Positions 1-30,634 of a stretch of DNA of 32,951 nucleotides are shown in pieces; the first letter of the stretch is position 1; the number at the start of each line of letters is the position of its first letter. The position numbers were made by a program, and so were the translations under genes. The stretch comes from Spirochaetia bacterium (lineage in GTDB: Bacteria; Spirochaetota; Spirochaetia; DSM-16054; Sediminispirochaetaceae), in assembly GCA_021736475.1 (NCBI GenBank), contig JAIPFV010000024.1, positions 1 to 32,951 of the forward strand, read 5' to 3'. Below the pieces are notes generated by a model. It was given only the letters and a program-made list of their open reading frames with translations, was not told where the DNA came from and made no database searches.

Positions 1-1175
1 TCTGTCTCCAACACTTCCAAAATAGAAAGGTATTTTCCAATGTTATCGGACCGCTTGAAGGTAGCCGCATACATCTGTCGTCCTTCTCGACTGTAGGGGT
101 GGAGCATCAGACCTCGGCGGTATTCCTGCCGGGCAAGCTCAATTCGGTTGTCCCGTTCGTAGGCAGCACCATACTCAAACCTTACCTCTGCGGCCGTTTG
201 TCTCTCCTGAGAATCCCCTGCGAAACGGTCCATAAGAAACTCTTCCAGGGCTATTCGTGAAATCTCATCACTTGGTTTAAGACTTAAAGCCGTATAAAAA
301 CTATTCAAAGCCCGCTCTTGATTTCCTATTTTCCAATATGCGTTAGCCCTTAGGTACCACAACAGTGGATTGTCACGATCTATATTGATATTTTTTTCTA
401 CCGCATCAATGGCATCAGTGAATCTATCCTGTGCGTACAAAATTCGTATGAGCACATATATTGCCTCTTCAGATTCAGAGTCCAATTGAAGTGCTTGACG
501 GGCATGCTCTTCAGCTTTACGGGAGTCATCTCTTTTGAAGTAATACTCAGCGGCAATAGAGTGCACCCGCGGATCCTCCGGATAGCTGTCGACTGCCGTT
601 TGAATAAGCTCTGAGGCCTCCTGAAGGTTATTCTGGGCACTATACAACAACGCTGCCGATAACAGACCGCGACGGTTATATGGATCCGATTCTAAGGCCT
701 TTCGATAACCGGCAATTGCATTCTCGACGCTCCCCTTTGCTGCCTGCAGCTCGGCCATTCCAAATTGGGCATCAAGATTGTGGGGTTCCCTTTCAAGGAT
801 TGCATCAAAAATTCGCTCTGCTTCCGAATACTTCCCCAGACCGGTATTGATTCTACCTTGAAGTGCGGTGATACTTGTGTTGTTCCGGTCGAGCCTGCGT
901 GCTTCCCGTATATACACAAGGGCTTGCTCATACTCTTCCAGTCTAAAATAAGCCTGTCCCAGGCCGTAAAGCGGTTTTACATAATCCGAATTATAAGAGA
1001 GAGATTCTTTAAAAAGATCGATGGCCCCGTACACATCGCCGGATTGGAGCCGGTTATCACCCTGCTGATACAAGTCAACCGCCGGATTTACAGCGGACAA
1101 TAACAAGATCCAACTGAGGATTATAAAGCTCAGAGCGCTTCCTATCTTTTTTCTTTTCCCGCATCTATGCGGCAC
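1..1175 (-). CDS. TPR-repeat protein with signal peptide (C-terminus beyond window)
   Basis: About 391 residues are visible and the frame runs open through the left edge, so the C-terminus is missing. The chosen start is a GTG that overlaps the end of corC by 11 bp; AAGGA lies 8 nt before it. The N-terminus is basic (VPHRCGKRKK) and followed by a hydrophobic stretch (SFIILSWILLLSAV), so export to the periplasm or anchoring in the inner membrane is likely. The rest is helical tetratricopeptide repeats, with signatures such as DLFKESLSYN, YGLGQAYFRLEEYEQAL and LLYSAQNNLQEASEL. TPRs act as protein-binding scaffolds; no partner or enzymatic function can be read from the sequence. It is the last visible gene of the phoH-pgpH-ybeY-corC block, and a TPR protein beside tlyC/corC is also what I recall from treponemes. 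The fold is well supported, the function unknown. Confidence 0.82.
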   Translation of the reverse strand, partial: MPHRCGKRKKIGSALSFIILSWILLLSAVNPAVDLYQQGDNRLQSGDVYGAIDLFKESLSYNSDYVKPLYGLGQAYFRLEEYEQALVYIREARRLDRNNTSITALQGRINTGLGKYSEAERIFDAILEREPHNLDAQFGMAELQAAKGSVENAIAGYRKALESDPYNRRGLLSAALLYSAQNNLQEASELIQTAVDSYPEDPRVHSIAAEYYFKRDDSRKAEEHARQALQLDSESEEAIYVLIRILYAQDRFTDAIDAVEKNINIDRDNPLLWYLRANAYWKIGNQERALNSFYTALSLKPSDEISRIALEEFLMDRFAGDSQERQTAAEVRFEYGAAYERDNRIELARQEYRRGLMLHPYSREGRQMYAATFKRSDNIGKYLSILEVLET

Positions 1176-11861: not shown

Positions 11862-12824
11862 CTACCTGTAGTGGAGCACTGTGGGCAATACATCCAAATT
11901 AGGAGAACCTAACTGGTTTCGCGACAGATTTGCCCATTTACCGGCTTCGGGATGCGTGGCTACGAGGGTCCAAATTTTTTTCGCCTCTTCCTCTGCATCG
12001 CTTGCCAGCATAGCTAAAGCTAACAAGTAGAGTTGACGATATAAACCGACGGTATTGAAATACTCTTTTATGTGCAGCACATCTCTGGAATCTTTCAGCA
12101 GTAAAGCGGTATTACGTGTAAAAAAAAGTTCCAGTCCAGGATTCATTTCGTAGTGTACAAATACATATTCAGGGTCTCGATCCTGCAGAACCTCTATAGC
12201 TAAAGAGAGAGAGGTGGTAACCGACAAGAGCAGATTTTGAAGAGCACTGCGGTAATTACCCTGTTGAAGTGCAAGCAGCCCAAGCTGCTCATAGGCTGCG
12301 CGGACCGGTTTATCGTTCATACGGTAGAGCTCTAACAACTTGTCGGGGCCTTCATTCAGGAACTTTCTTCGCATTGCCTCAATACGCTCTTCCGGCAGGG
12401 GATCTATTTCAGCTTCATCGACAACAGCTTGGAGGTACGTGTGCATGCTTTCCCAATCTTCAAGCCTTCTAGCTACTTCTGCTAAACTGTAGTATGCATT
12501 AATGCGTTCGGATTGGGGGAAAAAATTACGCTCCTCAGATAATGCATCTTTGTATTTTGCCATAGCTGCCGTGTACTCGCCCTCAGCGGCGAATACATGG
12601 CCGATCCACATATGGACATTTGCATATTGAGGGTCATCTTCGGCAATGGTTCTAAATATAGACAAGGCGGAGCCCAGCTGTCCCGCATCGTAATTTTGAA
12701 TACCTTGTTCCATCCTAAGCCACTGCGGCAGGGGTTTATCCTGGCAATATAAAAAAGCGGTAGTAAAAAATAACAAGGCAACTAAAACACAAATCTGTAT
12801 GAGCGGCTTTAGTCGTGTGTTCAC
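11862..12824 (-). CDS. Exported TPR-repeat protein
   Basis: 320 residues. The N-terminus has the shape of a signal peptide: a basic start (NTRLK), a hydrophobic run [18 protein letters not shown], then polar QDKPLP. A cysteine is near the cleavage site (FLYC) but the residue before it is Tyr, so a lipobox is doubtful. The mature part is helical with tetratricopeptide-like repeats ([50 protein letters not shown]). The start is GTG, sharing a GTGA overlap with the ispG stop, with AGGAG 11 nt upstream. Standing between ispG and uvrA, next to an LptD-like gene, it may be part of periplasmic or envelope assembly, but that is only inference from position. I do not recognise a named family beyond TPR. 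Confidence 0.82.
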
Positions 12825-13858
12825 AGTTTTTCCAACTCCTCTACAAATGCTTCGAAGGCTTCCGCTTCTTTCACTTTTCGCAGTATTTCACCATTTTTGA
12901 AAAGTATAATCTCTTTTCCCGCACCGGTAATACCAAGATCGGCGTGGCGGGCCTCGCCCGGACCATTGACTACACAACCCATTATCGCAACCGTAATATT
13001 CTTCTCTAACCCGTAGAGTACCGGCGCCAGTTTTTCTACGAAACTGTGGGTATCGAAGGTAGCCCGTCCGCATCGCGGACAAGAGATAATAGCCGGTCTG
13101 TTAATTCCCATACCGGCGGCACCTAATATCTCTTGTCCGGTGATAACCTCGTTCACCGGCGTATCGGAGAGGCTTACTCTGAGGGTATCTCCGATACCCT
13201 TTTCCAACAGCTTCACCATGGCCACACTGCTCTTCACAACTCCCGGAATAAGCGGACCGGCTTCGGTTACACCAAGATGCAGGGGATAGGGATACTTTTC
13301 GGCAAACAGTTCATTCGCATGCACGGTAGTATTAATGTCGGAAGCTTTTAATGAAAACACAATACTCTCGTAATTAAGCTGCTGAAAGGCATCCATCTCT
13401 CTTTCTGCTGCAGTGACCATCGCTCTGGAAATATCTGGCTCCTGCCTTAGCTCCTTCGGTAGAGACCCGCTGTTTACACCTACACGTATGGGCACCAGTG
13501 TATCGGCGGCAGCCCTTATTACCTCCTCAACTTTCCATCGTGCGCCAATATTACCCGGGTTGATTCTAATCTTATCAATTCCCCCATGGATACACTGCAA
13601 AGCAAGTCGATAATCGTAATGGATATCCGCAACCAAAGGCAGAGGGCTTTTCTGAGAAAGCTCTATTAACAAATTAGCCGCATCCTCATTCGGCACTGCA
13701 AAGCGAACAAAGGCACATCCAACCTGTTTTAATCGACTCAGCTGATCAATTACAGGCTGCAGGTTGCGGGTAAGCGGATCTTTCCACATGGTTTGCACTG
13801 CAACCGGTGCACCTCCGCCTATCGGAAGGTTTCCTATTTTTACCTTATGTGTTTTCAT
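12821..13858 (-). CDS. ispG: 4-hydroxy-3-methylbut-2-enyl diphosphate synthase IspG (GcpE)
   Basis: 345 residues, the short two-domain bacterial form. The 4Fe-4S ligands are visible as Cys260 and Cys263 (CPRCGR) and Cys295 (GCVVNGPGE), with the catalytic Glu302 in NGPGEA. The N-terminal TIM-barrel blocks VADIHYDYRLAL and DKIRINPGNIG are clear. IspG reductively converts MEcPP to HMBPP in the non-mevalonate isoprenoid pathway in the cytoplasm, feeding undecaprenyl carriers and quinones. The gene follows a strong terminator and heads the long minus-strand block. No Shine-Dalgarno precedes the ATG; instead TATAGT lies exactly 6 nt before it, so the mRNA may be leaderless. Its stop overlaps the next gene by 4 bp. 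Confidence 0.96.
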   Translation of the reverse strand: MKTHKVKIGNLPIGGGAPVAVQTMWKDPLTRNLQPVIDQLSRLKQVGCAFVRFAVPNEDAANLLIELSQKSPLPLVADIHYDYRLALQCIHGGIDKIRINPGNIGARWKVEEVIRAAADTLVPIRVGVNSGSLPKELRQEPDISRAMVTAAEREMDAFQQLNYESIVFSLKASDINTTVHANELFAEKYPYPLHLGVTEAGPLIPGVVKSSVAMVKLLEKGIGDTLRVSLSDTPVNEVITGQEILGAAGMGINRPAIISCPRCGRATFDTHSFVEKLAPVLYGLEKNITVAIMGCVVNGPGEARHADLGITGAGKEIILFKNGEILRKVKEAEAFEAFVEELEKL

Positions 13859-13864
13859 GTTACT

Positions 13865-13870
13865 ACTATA
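13865..13870 (-). promoter_or_regulatory. Candidate -10 element for ispG
   Basis: On the minus strand TATAGT lies 6 nt upstream of the ispG ATG and directly downstream of the V-ATPase terminator T-tract. No convincing -35 box is found at 16-18 nt upstream, where the terminator stem sits, so this may be a weak promoter, or ispG may depend on readthrough. Confidence 0.3.
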
Positions 13871-13914
13871 CCAAAATTAAAAAGGCGAAACACCCTTTTT
13901 GAGTGTTTCGCCTT
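13871..13914 (-). terminator. Intrinsic terminator after the V-ATPase operon
   Basis: A 12-bp perfect stem (13882-13893 with 13903-13914; AAGGCGAAACAC) closes a 9-nt loop. On the minus strand it is followed by TTTTTAATTTT, the classical layout. It lies 57 bp beyond the atpK stop codon and separates that operon from ispG. The opposite strand has only TTGAAAAA after the stem, so it works mainly for minus-strand transcripts. Confidence 0.9.
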
Positions 13915-25938: not shown

Positions 25939-25967
25939 TTGAATAACGGGCCGACAATCGATACTCT
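25939..25967 (+). promoter_or_regulatory. Candidate promoter of the pentapeptide-MBL unit
   Basis: TTGAAT (25939-25944) and TACTCT (25962-25967) are 17 nt apart on the plus strand. The -10-like box ends 6 nt before the ATG at 25974, so the transcript would begin at or next to the start codon. Confidence 0.4.
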
Positions 25968-25973
25968 GTATGT

Positions 25974-26570
25974 ATGTTCCTGTTTAATACATGTCAAAAA
26001 CCGGACTGTCAGCTGTATGCGGCCCACGGAGAAGACTACTGTCTGCATCATGTCGATGACCCTGAAGCCTGTAATGCACGTTTGGTAGAGATTGTCCAAG
26101 ACACTCAAGTCTTAAAGGATTTGAACTCCTCGTGTATCACCGTCGAAGATACCGACTTCAGCGATCATACATTTATGGTGTGCAATTTTTCCGAAAGCAG
26201 TTTTAAGAACGTAGACTTTTCCCATAGTAATTTTGATTTGTGCTTTTTACAATATTCGCGCTTTGAAAACTGCCGTTTTACTGAAACAAATATCAAGTAT
26301 TCTGTATTCGCCGGCAGCACTTTTATTAACTGCGATTTTAAGGACTCGGACATCGTACATACTAATTTTTTAGGCATAAACGCTGAGAACTGTGTATTTA
26401 ACGACTCCGACCTGTATTATTCAAACTTTACAAGTGCAGTATTACATGATGTAAGTTTTGTCGACTGCAATCTAAAGAAAGCAGATTTTGTAAACAGCTC
26501 CAGAGAAACAGTAAGTTTTAAGTACTCAAACTATGAAGAAGCCCGTTTTCAACAGGATACAGCTATATGA
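25974..26570 (+). CDS. Pentapeptide-repeat protein with N-terminal Cys/His cluster
   Basis: 198 residues. From about residue 55 to 190 the sequence follows pentapeptide periodicity with Phe/Leu or Asn/Asp every five residues (SNFDL, SRFEN, STFIN, SDIVH, SNFTS, ADFVN), predicting a right-handed quadrilateral beta-helix. The first 25 residues carry a Cys/His cluster (Cys7, Cys12, Cys23, His25 or His26) that could bind a metal. No signal peptide is seen, so it is probably cytoplasmic. Pentapeptide proteins range from DNA-gyrase mimics to scaffolds; nothing here settles the function. No Shine-Dalgarno precedes the ATG. The stop overlaps the next gene (ATGA), which makes a joint function with the MBL-fold protein likely. 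Confidence 0.85.
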   Translation: MFLFNTCQKPDCQLYAAHGEDYCLHHVDDPEACNARLVEIVQDTQVLKDLNSSCITVEDTDFSDHTFMVCNFSESSFKNVDFSHSNFDLCFLQYSRFENCRFTETNIKYSVFAGSTFINCDFKDSDIVHTNFLGINAENCVFNDSDLYYSNFTSAVLHDVSFVDCNLKKADFVNSSRETVSFKYSNYEEARFQQDTAI

Positions 26571-28500: not shown

Positions 28501-29187
28501 CTAACGAGACCCAAACAGTGCTGTGCCTATACGCACCATTGTGGAGCCCTCCTCGACCGCAATTTCGAAATCTGAAGTCATTCCCATCGAAAGTTGATCA
28601 ATCGGCAGCTCAGGAAAGCGCTCTTTGCTCTCCTCATAATAACTTTTCAACCGGGCAAATGCCCGCCTTATCGCATCACTGTCGTCGGTAAAGGGGCCAA
28701 TGGTCATAAAACCGCGTATCCGCAGGTGTGGAAATGATGCTATCTGCTCTATATCGGCATACATGGAATCCTTGGAAAGATAACCGCTTTTTGAATCCTC
28801 ACCCGAAGTATTATACTCCATAAAAATATCCATCTGTTTATCAATTGCGGCGCAGCGTTTTTCAAGTTCCCGGGCGGTTTTCAGTTTATCAATTGATTGA
28901 ACACAGCAGGCAATTTCCACCGCCTGCTTAGCCTTGTTGCTTTGCAAATGTCCAATTATATGAAGCCTTGCGTCCGGGTAAAAGTTCTCATATTTTTCGT
29001 AGGCTTCCTGTACCCGGTTTTCTCCAAACAAGCGCAACCCCGCCCGATAAGCCGCTTCGACCTGCTCACGGGTTTTAGTTTTGCTTACCGCCATAAGCTG
29101 AACATCTTCTCCGGTATGGCCGGCCTTCTCGGCGGCTTTGTCTATTCTATTGCGTATGTCGTTTATATTTTTCTCTACATCGTTCAT
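28501..29187 (-). CDS. yggS: YggS/PLPBP pyridoxal-phosphate homeostasis protein
   Basis: 228 residues, normal for the family. The PLP-binding lysine is Lys36 in LMAVSKTK, followed by FGENRVQEA and HIIGHLQSNKAK, then MGMTSDFEIAVEEGSTMVRIG and the ending FGSR. It is a fold-type III PLP-binding protein without known catalytic activity that keeps vitamin B6 and amino-acid pools balanced. No Shine-Dalgarno precedes the ATG; a strong promoter (TTTACA, 17 nt, TATTAT) ends 6 nt before it, pointing to a leaderless mRNA. It heads the unit yggS - hypothetical - rluD-like. Confidence 0.95.
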   Translation of the reverse strand: MNDVEKNINDIRNRIDKAAEKAGHTGEDVQLMAVSKTKTREQVEAAYRAGLRLFGENRVQEAYEKYENFYPDARLHIIGHLQSNKAKQAVEIACCVQSIDKLKTARELEKRCAAIDKQMDIFMEYNTSGEDSKSGYLSKDSMYADIEQIASFPHLRIRGFMTIGPFTDDSDAIRRAFARLKSYYEESKERFPELPIDQLSMGMTSDFEIAVEEGSTMVRIGTALFGSR

Positions 29188-29193
29188 ATCGAC

Positions 29194-29222
29194 ATAATAT
29201 AGCCTGGATAGTTACCTGTAAA
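29194..29222 (-). promoter_or_regulatory. Promoter of the yggS unit
   Basis: On the minus strand TTTACA (29217-29222) and TATTAT (29194-29199), each 5 of 6 to consensus, are 17 nt apart. The -10 ends 6 nt before the yggS ATG, so transcription would begin about at the start codon. Confidence 0.55.
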
Positions 29223-29246: not shown

Positions 29247-30341
29247 TTACTTATGGATGTCTACTCCAGCCTCTTCAAAGAAGAAGGGGTGGAATTTGCG
29301 GTAAAAGTGCTCAGGTACTAAAAAGTTCACCACGTGCGGCATAATAGAGACTTTTATTTCAGCCTCAGGGCCTGTATGATACAGCTCACCATCTACATGG
29401 AAAGAAAAGGGGGTATCCATACGGATTACGGTAGATTCAACCTCGTAACGTTCAATCAGCGGATCCCCAGCTTTAACCAAATGCCGATTAACTCTATCGT
29501 GCCAGCCGTTCCAAACTGAAATAATATTCCTAATAACTGAGAAATGATTGGTAAATTGAAACAAGTAGGCATCCATTTTACCATCGTTACAAACTACATC
29601 AGGACAGATTTTAAACCGTTTTCCATAGTACGGCCGGGTGCCGATTTCAATTAAAGTGGATTTTGTACTGCGTACCAGCGTTCTGAAAGGATATTCGGCA
29701 TTGATTTTACCGCCTTTCAATGCATACTTTCCATTAGAAAAGGTAAGAGTCTTACTCCCTACCTTGTTAAAATCAAAGCTCTTGAGCACTTTTAGTCCGG
29801 CAACGATGTAAAACCGGAGACCTGCTACAGTTGCTTTGTCCGAAGCAGTCACAAATTGATCGTTTCTTATCTTTAAAATATCAGCATCTACGCCAACGCC
29901 TATCAGCTGTCCGTATAATGTTTTTTGCCCTGTCTCTATTTTCAGCATATCCACAGCTACATAATAGTTATTCTCCGCACTCCTGATGTAGGTTTCAATT
30001 TGACGACTTATTCTCCAGGGAATTTCATAGGAATCTTGAATGCCATTGCCAGTGCCGCCGCGCAGAAAACCAAGAGCTTTTCCTTGAGGCGGGTGGATCA
30101 TCATGGCGTTGATTGCATCATGCACAGTCCCATCGCCCCCCCAGATCACAAGATTTTCCGCTTGACCTTTGCAGAACTTAACCACCTCGCTGCGCAGCTC
30201 TTCACTACTGGAGGTTTCGATTATCTCCGCGGAGGTTCGTCGTTTGATGATTTTTTTCAGAACCTTCACCGAAGAAGGATGCCTGGTCGGATTGATGAGA
30301 AAAGTACAGCTTTTTAGAGCCTGGTTTAATTTCTTGTCCAC
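29247..30341 (-). CDS. Diacylglycerol kinase family lipid kinase (YegS/DgkB-like)
   Basis: 364 residues. The DAGK catalytic signature GGDGTVHD is at 68-75, preceded by the N-terminal INPTRHPSS block; GFLRGGTGNGIQDS follows, as in YegS/DgkB-type kinases, and VDGELYH near the C-terminus belongs to the beta-sandwich domain. No transmembrane segment is present, so it acts at the inner membrane face on a lipid such as diacylglycerol; sphingoid bases are possible because the length exceeds typical bacterial DgkB (about 300). The start is GTG without a ribosome site and sits 6 nt behind a -10-like box. The 59-bp gap to yggS holds the yggS promoter. Confidence 0.88.
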   Translation of the reverse strand: MDKKLNQALKSCTFLINPTRHPSSVKVLKKIIKRRTSAEIIETSSSEELRSEVVKFCKGQAENLVIWGGDGTVHDAINAMMIHPPQGKALGFLRGGTGNGIQDSYEIPWRISRQIETYIRSAENNYYVAVDMLKIETGQKTLYGQLIGVGVDADILKIRNDQFVTASDKATVAGLRFYIVAGLKVLKSFDFNKVGSKTLTFSNGKYALKGGKINAEYPFRTLVRSTKSTLIEIGTRPYYGKRFKICPDVVCNDGKMDAYLFQFTNHFSVIRNIISVWNGWHDRVNRHLVKAGDPLIERYEVESTVIRMDTPFSFHVDGELYHTGPEAEIKVSIMPHVVNFLVPEHFYRKFHPFFFEEAGVDIHK

Positions 30342-30347
30342 GCTGTT

Positions 30348-30376
30348 ACTTTAATAAAGAATTCCAGTTGGTGCAA
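30348..30376 (-). promoter_or_regulatory. Candidate promoter of the lipid-kinase gene
   Basis: On the minus strand TTGCAC (30371-30376) and TAAAGT (30348-30353) are 17 nt apart and lie downstream of the tRNA-Val terminator. The -10-like box ends 6 nt before the GTG start codon. Confidence 0.4.
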
Positions 30377-30453: not shown

Positions 30454-30483
30454 AAAAAAAAGCAGCCCCGGTTAAGGCTGCTT
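30454..30483 (-). terminator. Intrinsic terminator after tRNA-Val
   Basis: AAGCAGCC and GGCTGCTT form an 8-bp stem around an 8-nt loop (TTAACCGG on the minus strand), followed by a T-run on the minus strand. It begins 35 bp beyond the 3' end of the tRNA. Confidence 0.92.
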
Positions 30484-30517
30484 AATTCTAAATTGTTATG
30501 CAATAGGCAATTAAGAA

Positions 30518-30590
30518 TGGGCGGTACTGGACTTGAACCAGTGACATCCTGCTTGTAAGGCAGGCGCTCTCCCAACTGAGCTAACCACCC
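30518..30590 (-). tRNA. tRNA-Val (anticodon UAC)
   Basis: 73 nt folding as a full cloverleaf on the minus strand. The acceptor GGGTGGT pairs with ACCGCCC (one G-U), discriminator A; the D arm is GCTCAGTTGGGAGAGC; the anticodon stem CCTGC/GCAGG holds the loop CTTACAA with anticodon TAC, reading valine GUA/GUG codons; the T arm is ACTGGTTCAAGTCCAGT. The 3' CCA is not encoded and must be added by nucleotidyltransferase. It is a single-gene unit with its own promoter and terminator. Confidence 0.97.
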
Positions 30591-30605
30591 CCAACTGTTG
30601 AATGG

Positions 30606-30634
30606 AATCTATCAAATAGCGAAAAAAGTGTCAA
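30606..30634 (-). promoter_or_regulatory. Promoter of tRNA-Val
   Basis: On the minus strand the perfect -35 TTGACA (30629-30634) and TAGATT (30606-30611) are 17 nt apart. Transcription would start about 10 nt before the mature tRNA 5' end. Confidence 0.75.

Follow-up and report, generated by a model that had tools for sequence, protein, structure and literature searches.

Promoter-like boxes six nucleotides before the start codon point to a probable class of leaderless mRNAs in Spirochaetia

Four genes of a Spirochaetia genome, i.e., yggS, a lipid kinase gene, a pentapeptide-repeat gene and ispG, probably have sigma-70 type promoters from which transcription would start at the start codon itself, giving leaderless mRNAs; the probability of this reading, which is drawn from the sequence, is put at about 0.87. 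The −10 box, its spacing, the −35 element, the missing Shine-Dalgarno (SD) sequence, the genome-wide excess and the conservation are observed. The four genes belong to a class that makes up about one in ten of the unit heads and is common to most of the sampled Spirochaetia.

Between a sigma-70 −10 hexamer and the first transcribed base there are usually 6 nt. The gap found here is the same, and therefore the polymerase should begin transcription at the A or G of the start codon. According to the proposed mechanism: (i) RNA polymerase with the housekeeping sigma factor would start at, or 0-3 nt from, the first base of the start codon, the −35 element sitting 16-18 nt above the −10 box or being replaced by an extended −10 (ispG); (ii) the resulting mRNA would have neither a 5' leader nor an SD; (iii) its 5'-terminal AUG or GUG would be bound by the 70S ribosome, or by the 30S subunit together with the initiator tRNA. 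Where transcription really starts and how the mRNA is translated are thus predictions from the promoter position.

Sites in the window

The window, i.e., the whole stretch of 32,951 nucleotides that was analysed, is one contig of a 3.2-Mb genome in 160 contigs (labelled G000). The four promoter-like strings reported in a preliminary description are present letter for letter (Table 1), and the gap of 6 nt between −10 box and start codon is found in all four genes. The reported lack of an SD is equally borne out, since none of GGAG, GAGG, AGGA and AAGG occurs at −20 to −4 in any of them. The first T of TANNNT is 12 nt before the start codon in the four cases, within the roughly 10-12 nt that characterize TA-led genes. 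A −35 element at 16-18 nt from the −10 box is present in three genes. For ispG, described as having no clear −35, this element is indeed missing, but an extended −10 (TGG-TATAGT) is present. In the Rfam search of the window a tRNA is the sole match, thus a riboswitch leader is not involved.

Table 1. Coordinates of the promoter elements, genes and terminators in the window, and of divergent gene pairs in other genome stretches.
Feature	Position	Strand	Remarks
yggS −35 element TTTACA	29217..29222	-	string check and independent promoter scan
yggS −10 element TATTAT	29194..29199	-	17 nt from −35, 6 nt from ATG; promoter scan
yggS-type PLP protein gene (Ala_racemase_N)	28501..29187	-	ATG at 29187-29185
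Lipid kinase −35 element TTGCAC	30371..30376	-	string check
Lipid kinase −10 element TAAAGT	30348..30353	-	17 nt from −35, 6 nt from GTG
Diacylglycerol/lipid kinase gene (DAGK_cat, YegS_C)	29247..30341	-	proposed GTG start 30341-30339
Intrinsic terminator behind tRNA-Val	30460..30483	-	promoter/terminator scan
Pentapeptide-repeat gene −35 element TTGAAT	25939..25944	+	TTGACA in G001-G003
Pentapeptide-repeat gene −10 element TACTCT	25962..25967	+	17 nt from −35, 6 nt from ATG
Pentapeptide-repeat protein gene	25974..26570	+	ATG at 25974; Pfam Pentapeptide_4, E=1.2e-19
ispG −10 element TATAGT	13865..13870	-	TGG before box (extended −10); 6 nt from ATG
ispG (GcpE) gene	12821..13858	-	ATG 13858-13856; Pfam PF04551, E=3.7e-128, from residue 3
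Intrinsic terminator of the unit upstream of ispG	13882..13914	-	T tract runs almost into the −10 box
Divergent leaderless-type pair	L165:11133-11197		
Divergent leaderless-type pair	L167:5202-5281		
Divergent leaderless-type pair	L199:17449-17507		
Divergent leaderless-type pair	L200:8537-8611		
Divergent leaderless-type pair	L203:5209-5289		

An in-frame stop is found 12-30 nt upstream of each of the four proposed starts (12 nt upstream of the GTG in the kinase frame), and these starts are therefore the earliest possible ones. It could be supposed that the boxes are promoters but that the true start codons lie further downstream, the mRNAs having ordinary short leaders. The kinase gene lends itself to this explanation: a GTG located 24 codons into the gene is preferred by the gene finder, and relatives align to the product from residue 10-12 onwards. 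However, the starts of the other three genes match the family profiles and the N-termini of orthologues, the next in-frame candidate starts are 20-36 codons inside, and misplaced starts would blur the 6-nt peak described below, not create one. Downstream starts are thus very improbable for the four genes; for the class, in which they would smear the peak, this explanation is rejected.

The yggS product matches Pfam PF01168 (E=5.9e-23, residues 9-227) and has its closest named relatives in Candidatus Marispirochaeta (50%) and a Spirochaetaceae MAG (47%). The gene follows the kinase gene in the same orientation after 59 nt, and no terminator was found between them; read-through from the kinase unit is therefore possible, and yggS may be transcribed also together with the kinase gene. 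The four genes had been presented as heads of transcription units: this holds for the class as a whole, but for yggS it is ambiguous.

The lipid kinase is the weakest of the four cases: its start is a GTG, its N-terminus is only partly confirmed, and the gap in relatives is 9 nt. Its promoter is isolated from upstream transcription by the terminator behind tRNA-Val. This tRNA-Val(TAC), just upstream of the kinase gene (30460-30634 with its terminator), has its own promoter, TTGACA-17-TAGATT, with an extended −10.

Conservation in orthologues

The order of the source genome is represented by four genomes of one family only. In orthologues the box-to-start spacing is conserved, mostly at 6 nt with 7-9 nt also seen; for the kinase gene conservation is looser, the boxes being TTGCCC-17-TACGTT-9-ATG in G002 and G003. 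For yggS, they are TATTAT-7-ATG in G001, TATGCT-6-ATG in G002 and G003, TACTAT-6-GTG in Marispirochaeta and TAGAGT-7-ATG in Spirochaetaceae 4572_59. For ispG, a box at 6-7 nt is retained in the four family genomes, i.e., TGTTATAAT-7-ATG in G001 and TAAAGT-6-ATG in G002 and G003 besides that of the window, and a TG stands one base upstream of the box (extended −10) in the source genome and its congener G001. The ispG promoter is located in the tail of the preceding terminator, and a similar hairpin with T-run is found directly upstream of the box in G001 and G003.

The pentapeptide-repeat gene is the clearest case of conservation. The start position is common to the orthologues. Within the class, 16 of 19 loci have a box 5-7 nt before the conserved start, with protein identities as low as about 32%; the gap is exactly 6 nt in 13 of 15 re-aligned loci, these 15 having been picked for the presence of a box. 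The three exceptions all belong to genus g4 and match only from residue 37-38, thus their N-termini cannot be compared; an SD-led start is seen in two. Outside the class, the four orthologues (4/4) have an SD, and no box was found at their start. Since this gene looks leaderless in one class and has an SD in others, it is well suited to studying how genes switch between the two modes of translation initiation. The protein carries an N-terminal Cys/His stretch (CQKPDCQLYAAHGEDYCLHH) ahead of the repeats and is found in 20 of 120 genomes of the phylum at E<=1e-15.

Among the sampled unit heads, reciprocal-best orthologue pairs agree in box state: both members are boxed in 8 pairs, one only in 4 and neither in 29 (Fisher p=1.9e-5, the pairs not being phylogenetically independent).

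Genome-wide distribution of the boxes

The gene-based sample contains 40 genome stretches and the window, i.e., 726 kb and 570 genes. Genes were called with a hexamer-based finder that is blind to upstream signals and places 36 of 41 annotated E. coli starts at the exact position. Genes were counted as unit heads when the neighbour upstream was divergent or separated by at least 60 nt (313 in the sample). The SD was called by a simple four-letter match, which is crude, and the selection of SD-less genes slightly favours T/A-rich upstreams.

In the 726 kb, TANNNT stands exactly 6 nt from the start in 22 of the 172 SD-less unit heads, vs. 4.9 per offset at 12-49 nt. At this distance it is found before no SD-bearing unit head and before a single operon-internal gene (1/194; 75% of these 194 genes have an SD). 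A box at 5-9 nt occurs in 51 genes, vs. 23.2±4.3 (maximum 37) in 200 dinucleotide shuffles. The fuller pattern TTGNNN-16..18-TANNNT, searched before any in-frame start of head genes, has 16 matches at 6 nt. Each offset of 0-5 nt has 0-2 matches, and the offsets of 13-39 nt have 4.4 on average. If the boxes set the start of the transcript, the sharp edge at 6 nt would be due to the fact that the start codon cannot precede the first transcribed base. A −35 hexamer in which 4 or more of the 6 positions match accompanies 54% of the boxes at 6-8 nt, vs. 15-16% of the control positions. ATG is used at 83% of the boxed starts in G000, vs. 60% in the other SD-less heads, and at 100% in G001 and G003.

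The excess at 6-9 nt (about 36 genes) amounts to about 12% of the unit heads (313) and to 6% of all genes in the sample, TANNNT boxes alone being counted. When the selection of SD-less genes is omitted, the 6-nt peak remains in G000 (p=5e-4) and G118 (p=4e-10); in G003 and G022 it is then not significant and becomes so for SD-less heads only. G006 and G007, which were sampled more closely and serve beside E. coli as negative controls, have little signal by the gene-based test. Nucleotide frequency profiles alone are too blurred to be informative.

It may be argued that the upstreams of a genome of 46-49% GC are rich in A/T and yield −10-like hexamers, four of them at 6 nt being a coincidence; TANNNT is short, and about 5 of the 172 SD-less heads have one at any given offset. 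This does not account for a sharp peak at a single offset that is missing before SD-led and internal genes, for the −35 elements that accompany the boxes, for the conservation of the boxes across 31-68% protein identity, or for a whole-genome excess obtained without gene calling (see below). The probability of mere coincidence is next to negligible for the four genes, and chance is rejected for the class on the basis of the single-offset peak, the −35, the conservation and the counts that are independent of the gene caller.

Another explanation is that transcription starts 3-10 nt upstream, or at a second promoter, and that the SD-less leaders are translated by way of protein S1 or of a lack of structure. 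The offsets of 7-9 nt, which are likewise in excess in G000, and the possible read-through into yggS are in its favour. On the contrary, the modal spacing equals the canonical distance from −10 to transcription start, and the bases at the start codon, with A/G at +1 and G at −1 in none of 41 boxed starts (6-8 nt), suit an initiator located at the start codon itself. Upstream starts are thus improbable, and initiation at the start codon is the reading that is retained. The preliminary description had supposed a regular class behind the repeated 6-nt spacing; the genome-wide peak and the conservation support it, and box-to-start spacing is far above chance in the 726 kb as well as in the whole-genome patterns.

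Whole-genome counts and distribution among lineages

Without any gene caller, TTGACN-16..18-TANNNT-6-ATG is found 32 times in the whole genome, vs. 9 times with a 12-nt gap; the controls read backwards give 3 (6-nt gap) and 10 (12-nt gap). For the source genome plus 15 genomes of the same class, the totals are 420 (6-nt gap) vs. 100 (12-nt gap). Family f5 (G068, G093, G098 and G122) and the 1.1-Mb genome G052 have merely 1-3 matches each, which suggests that leaderless-type promoters have been lost in these lineages. It can be added that the f5 genomes and G052 are small genomes of the class (1.0-1.5 Mb). An excess is also found in several families outside the class (e.g., f8, f9 and f15), thus the trait is not exclusive to it.

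There is about an even chance that 6-nt-spaced leaderless transcription is an old trait of Spirochaetia, kept gene by gene, lost in f5 and G052, and sometimes arranged in back-to-back pairs with overlapping −35 elements.

Comparison with known leaderless genes

The preliminary description held leaderless mRNAs to be more familiar in actinobacteria and Deinococcus than in spirochaetes, which is only half right. Zheng et al. (2011) defined TA-led genes with a matching geometry and already named Spirochaetes as one of the groups for which leaderless genes had been computed (PMC3160421). In Leptospira interrogans, dRNA-seq revealed leaders of 0-10 nt in about 440 mRNAs, roughly half of which have leaders shorter than 2 nt (PMC5243855). 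A study of Deinococcus from 2025 found a −10 motif adjoining ORFs in many phyla (PMC12340547). The phenomenon and its mechanism are therefore already known. The present case is a well-supported new instance, and the mechanism is not new. What is added is the sharpness, the breadth and the gene-by-gene conservation in the class Spirochaetia, where leaderless expression has hardly been described before; a literature search limited to open papers found no start-site study of this class that mentions leaderless genes.

The comparison with known systems leads to the following points: (i) as in the TA-led genes of Actinobacteria and Deinococcus-Thermus, the first T of TANNNT is about 12 nt before the start, the genes are SD-less and often have a −35, and in our data boxes are absent before operon-internal genes. 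The share is however about 12% of unit heads, vs. about 20% in Actinobacteria and 30-46% of genes in Deinococcus-Thermus (PMC3160421, PMC12340547), and in contrast to these groups the SD is common here, as the internal genes attest; (ii) Leptospira interrogans belongs to the same phylum but to a different class, and its starts were measured, whereas ours are read from sequence alone. No general −10 motif was found in that study (PMC5243855), whereas −35 and −10 are clear here, with a fixed spacing; (iii) the promoters resemble those of E. coli sigma-70 (TTGACA-17-TATAAT-like, 6 nt to the predicted start, and an extended −10 where a −35 is lacking), but the latter rarely abut the start codon, and no 6-nt peak was found in E. 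coli MG1655 with the identical pipeline.

If confirmed, these results would mean that a definite set of genes is expressed from leaderless mRNAs in a class to which the treponemes and many free-living spirochaetes belong. The annotation of starts and promoters in Spirochaetia would change, and a promoter signal would be readable from sequence in organisms with little transcript data. The understanding of the leaderless mechanism itself would be unchanged.

Additional observations

Some divergent genes separated by only 58-80 bp have overlapping promoters, and both members of the pair look leaderless (Table 1). In the L165 pair, TTGACAA serves as −35 in both directions. Compared with the numbers expected from independence, such pairs are not commoner overall (2 vs. 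2.9 in G000, 3 vs. 1.0 in G003 and 3 vs. 2.9 in G118).

Genomes of candidate division WOR-3 have a very strong leaderless-type signal, with 20 of 42 SD-less heads and near-consensus TTGACA/TATAAT elements (stretches L011, L017, L020, L032, L038, L041, L058, L059 and L067). In several of these genomes the yggS orthologue is preceded by TTGACA-17-TATAAT-5-ATG.
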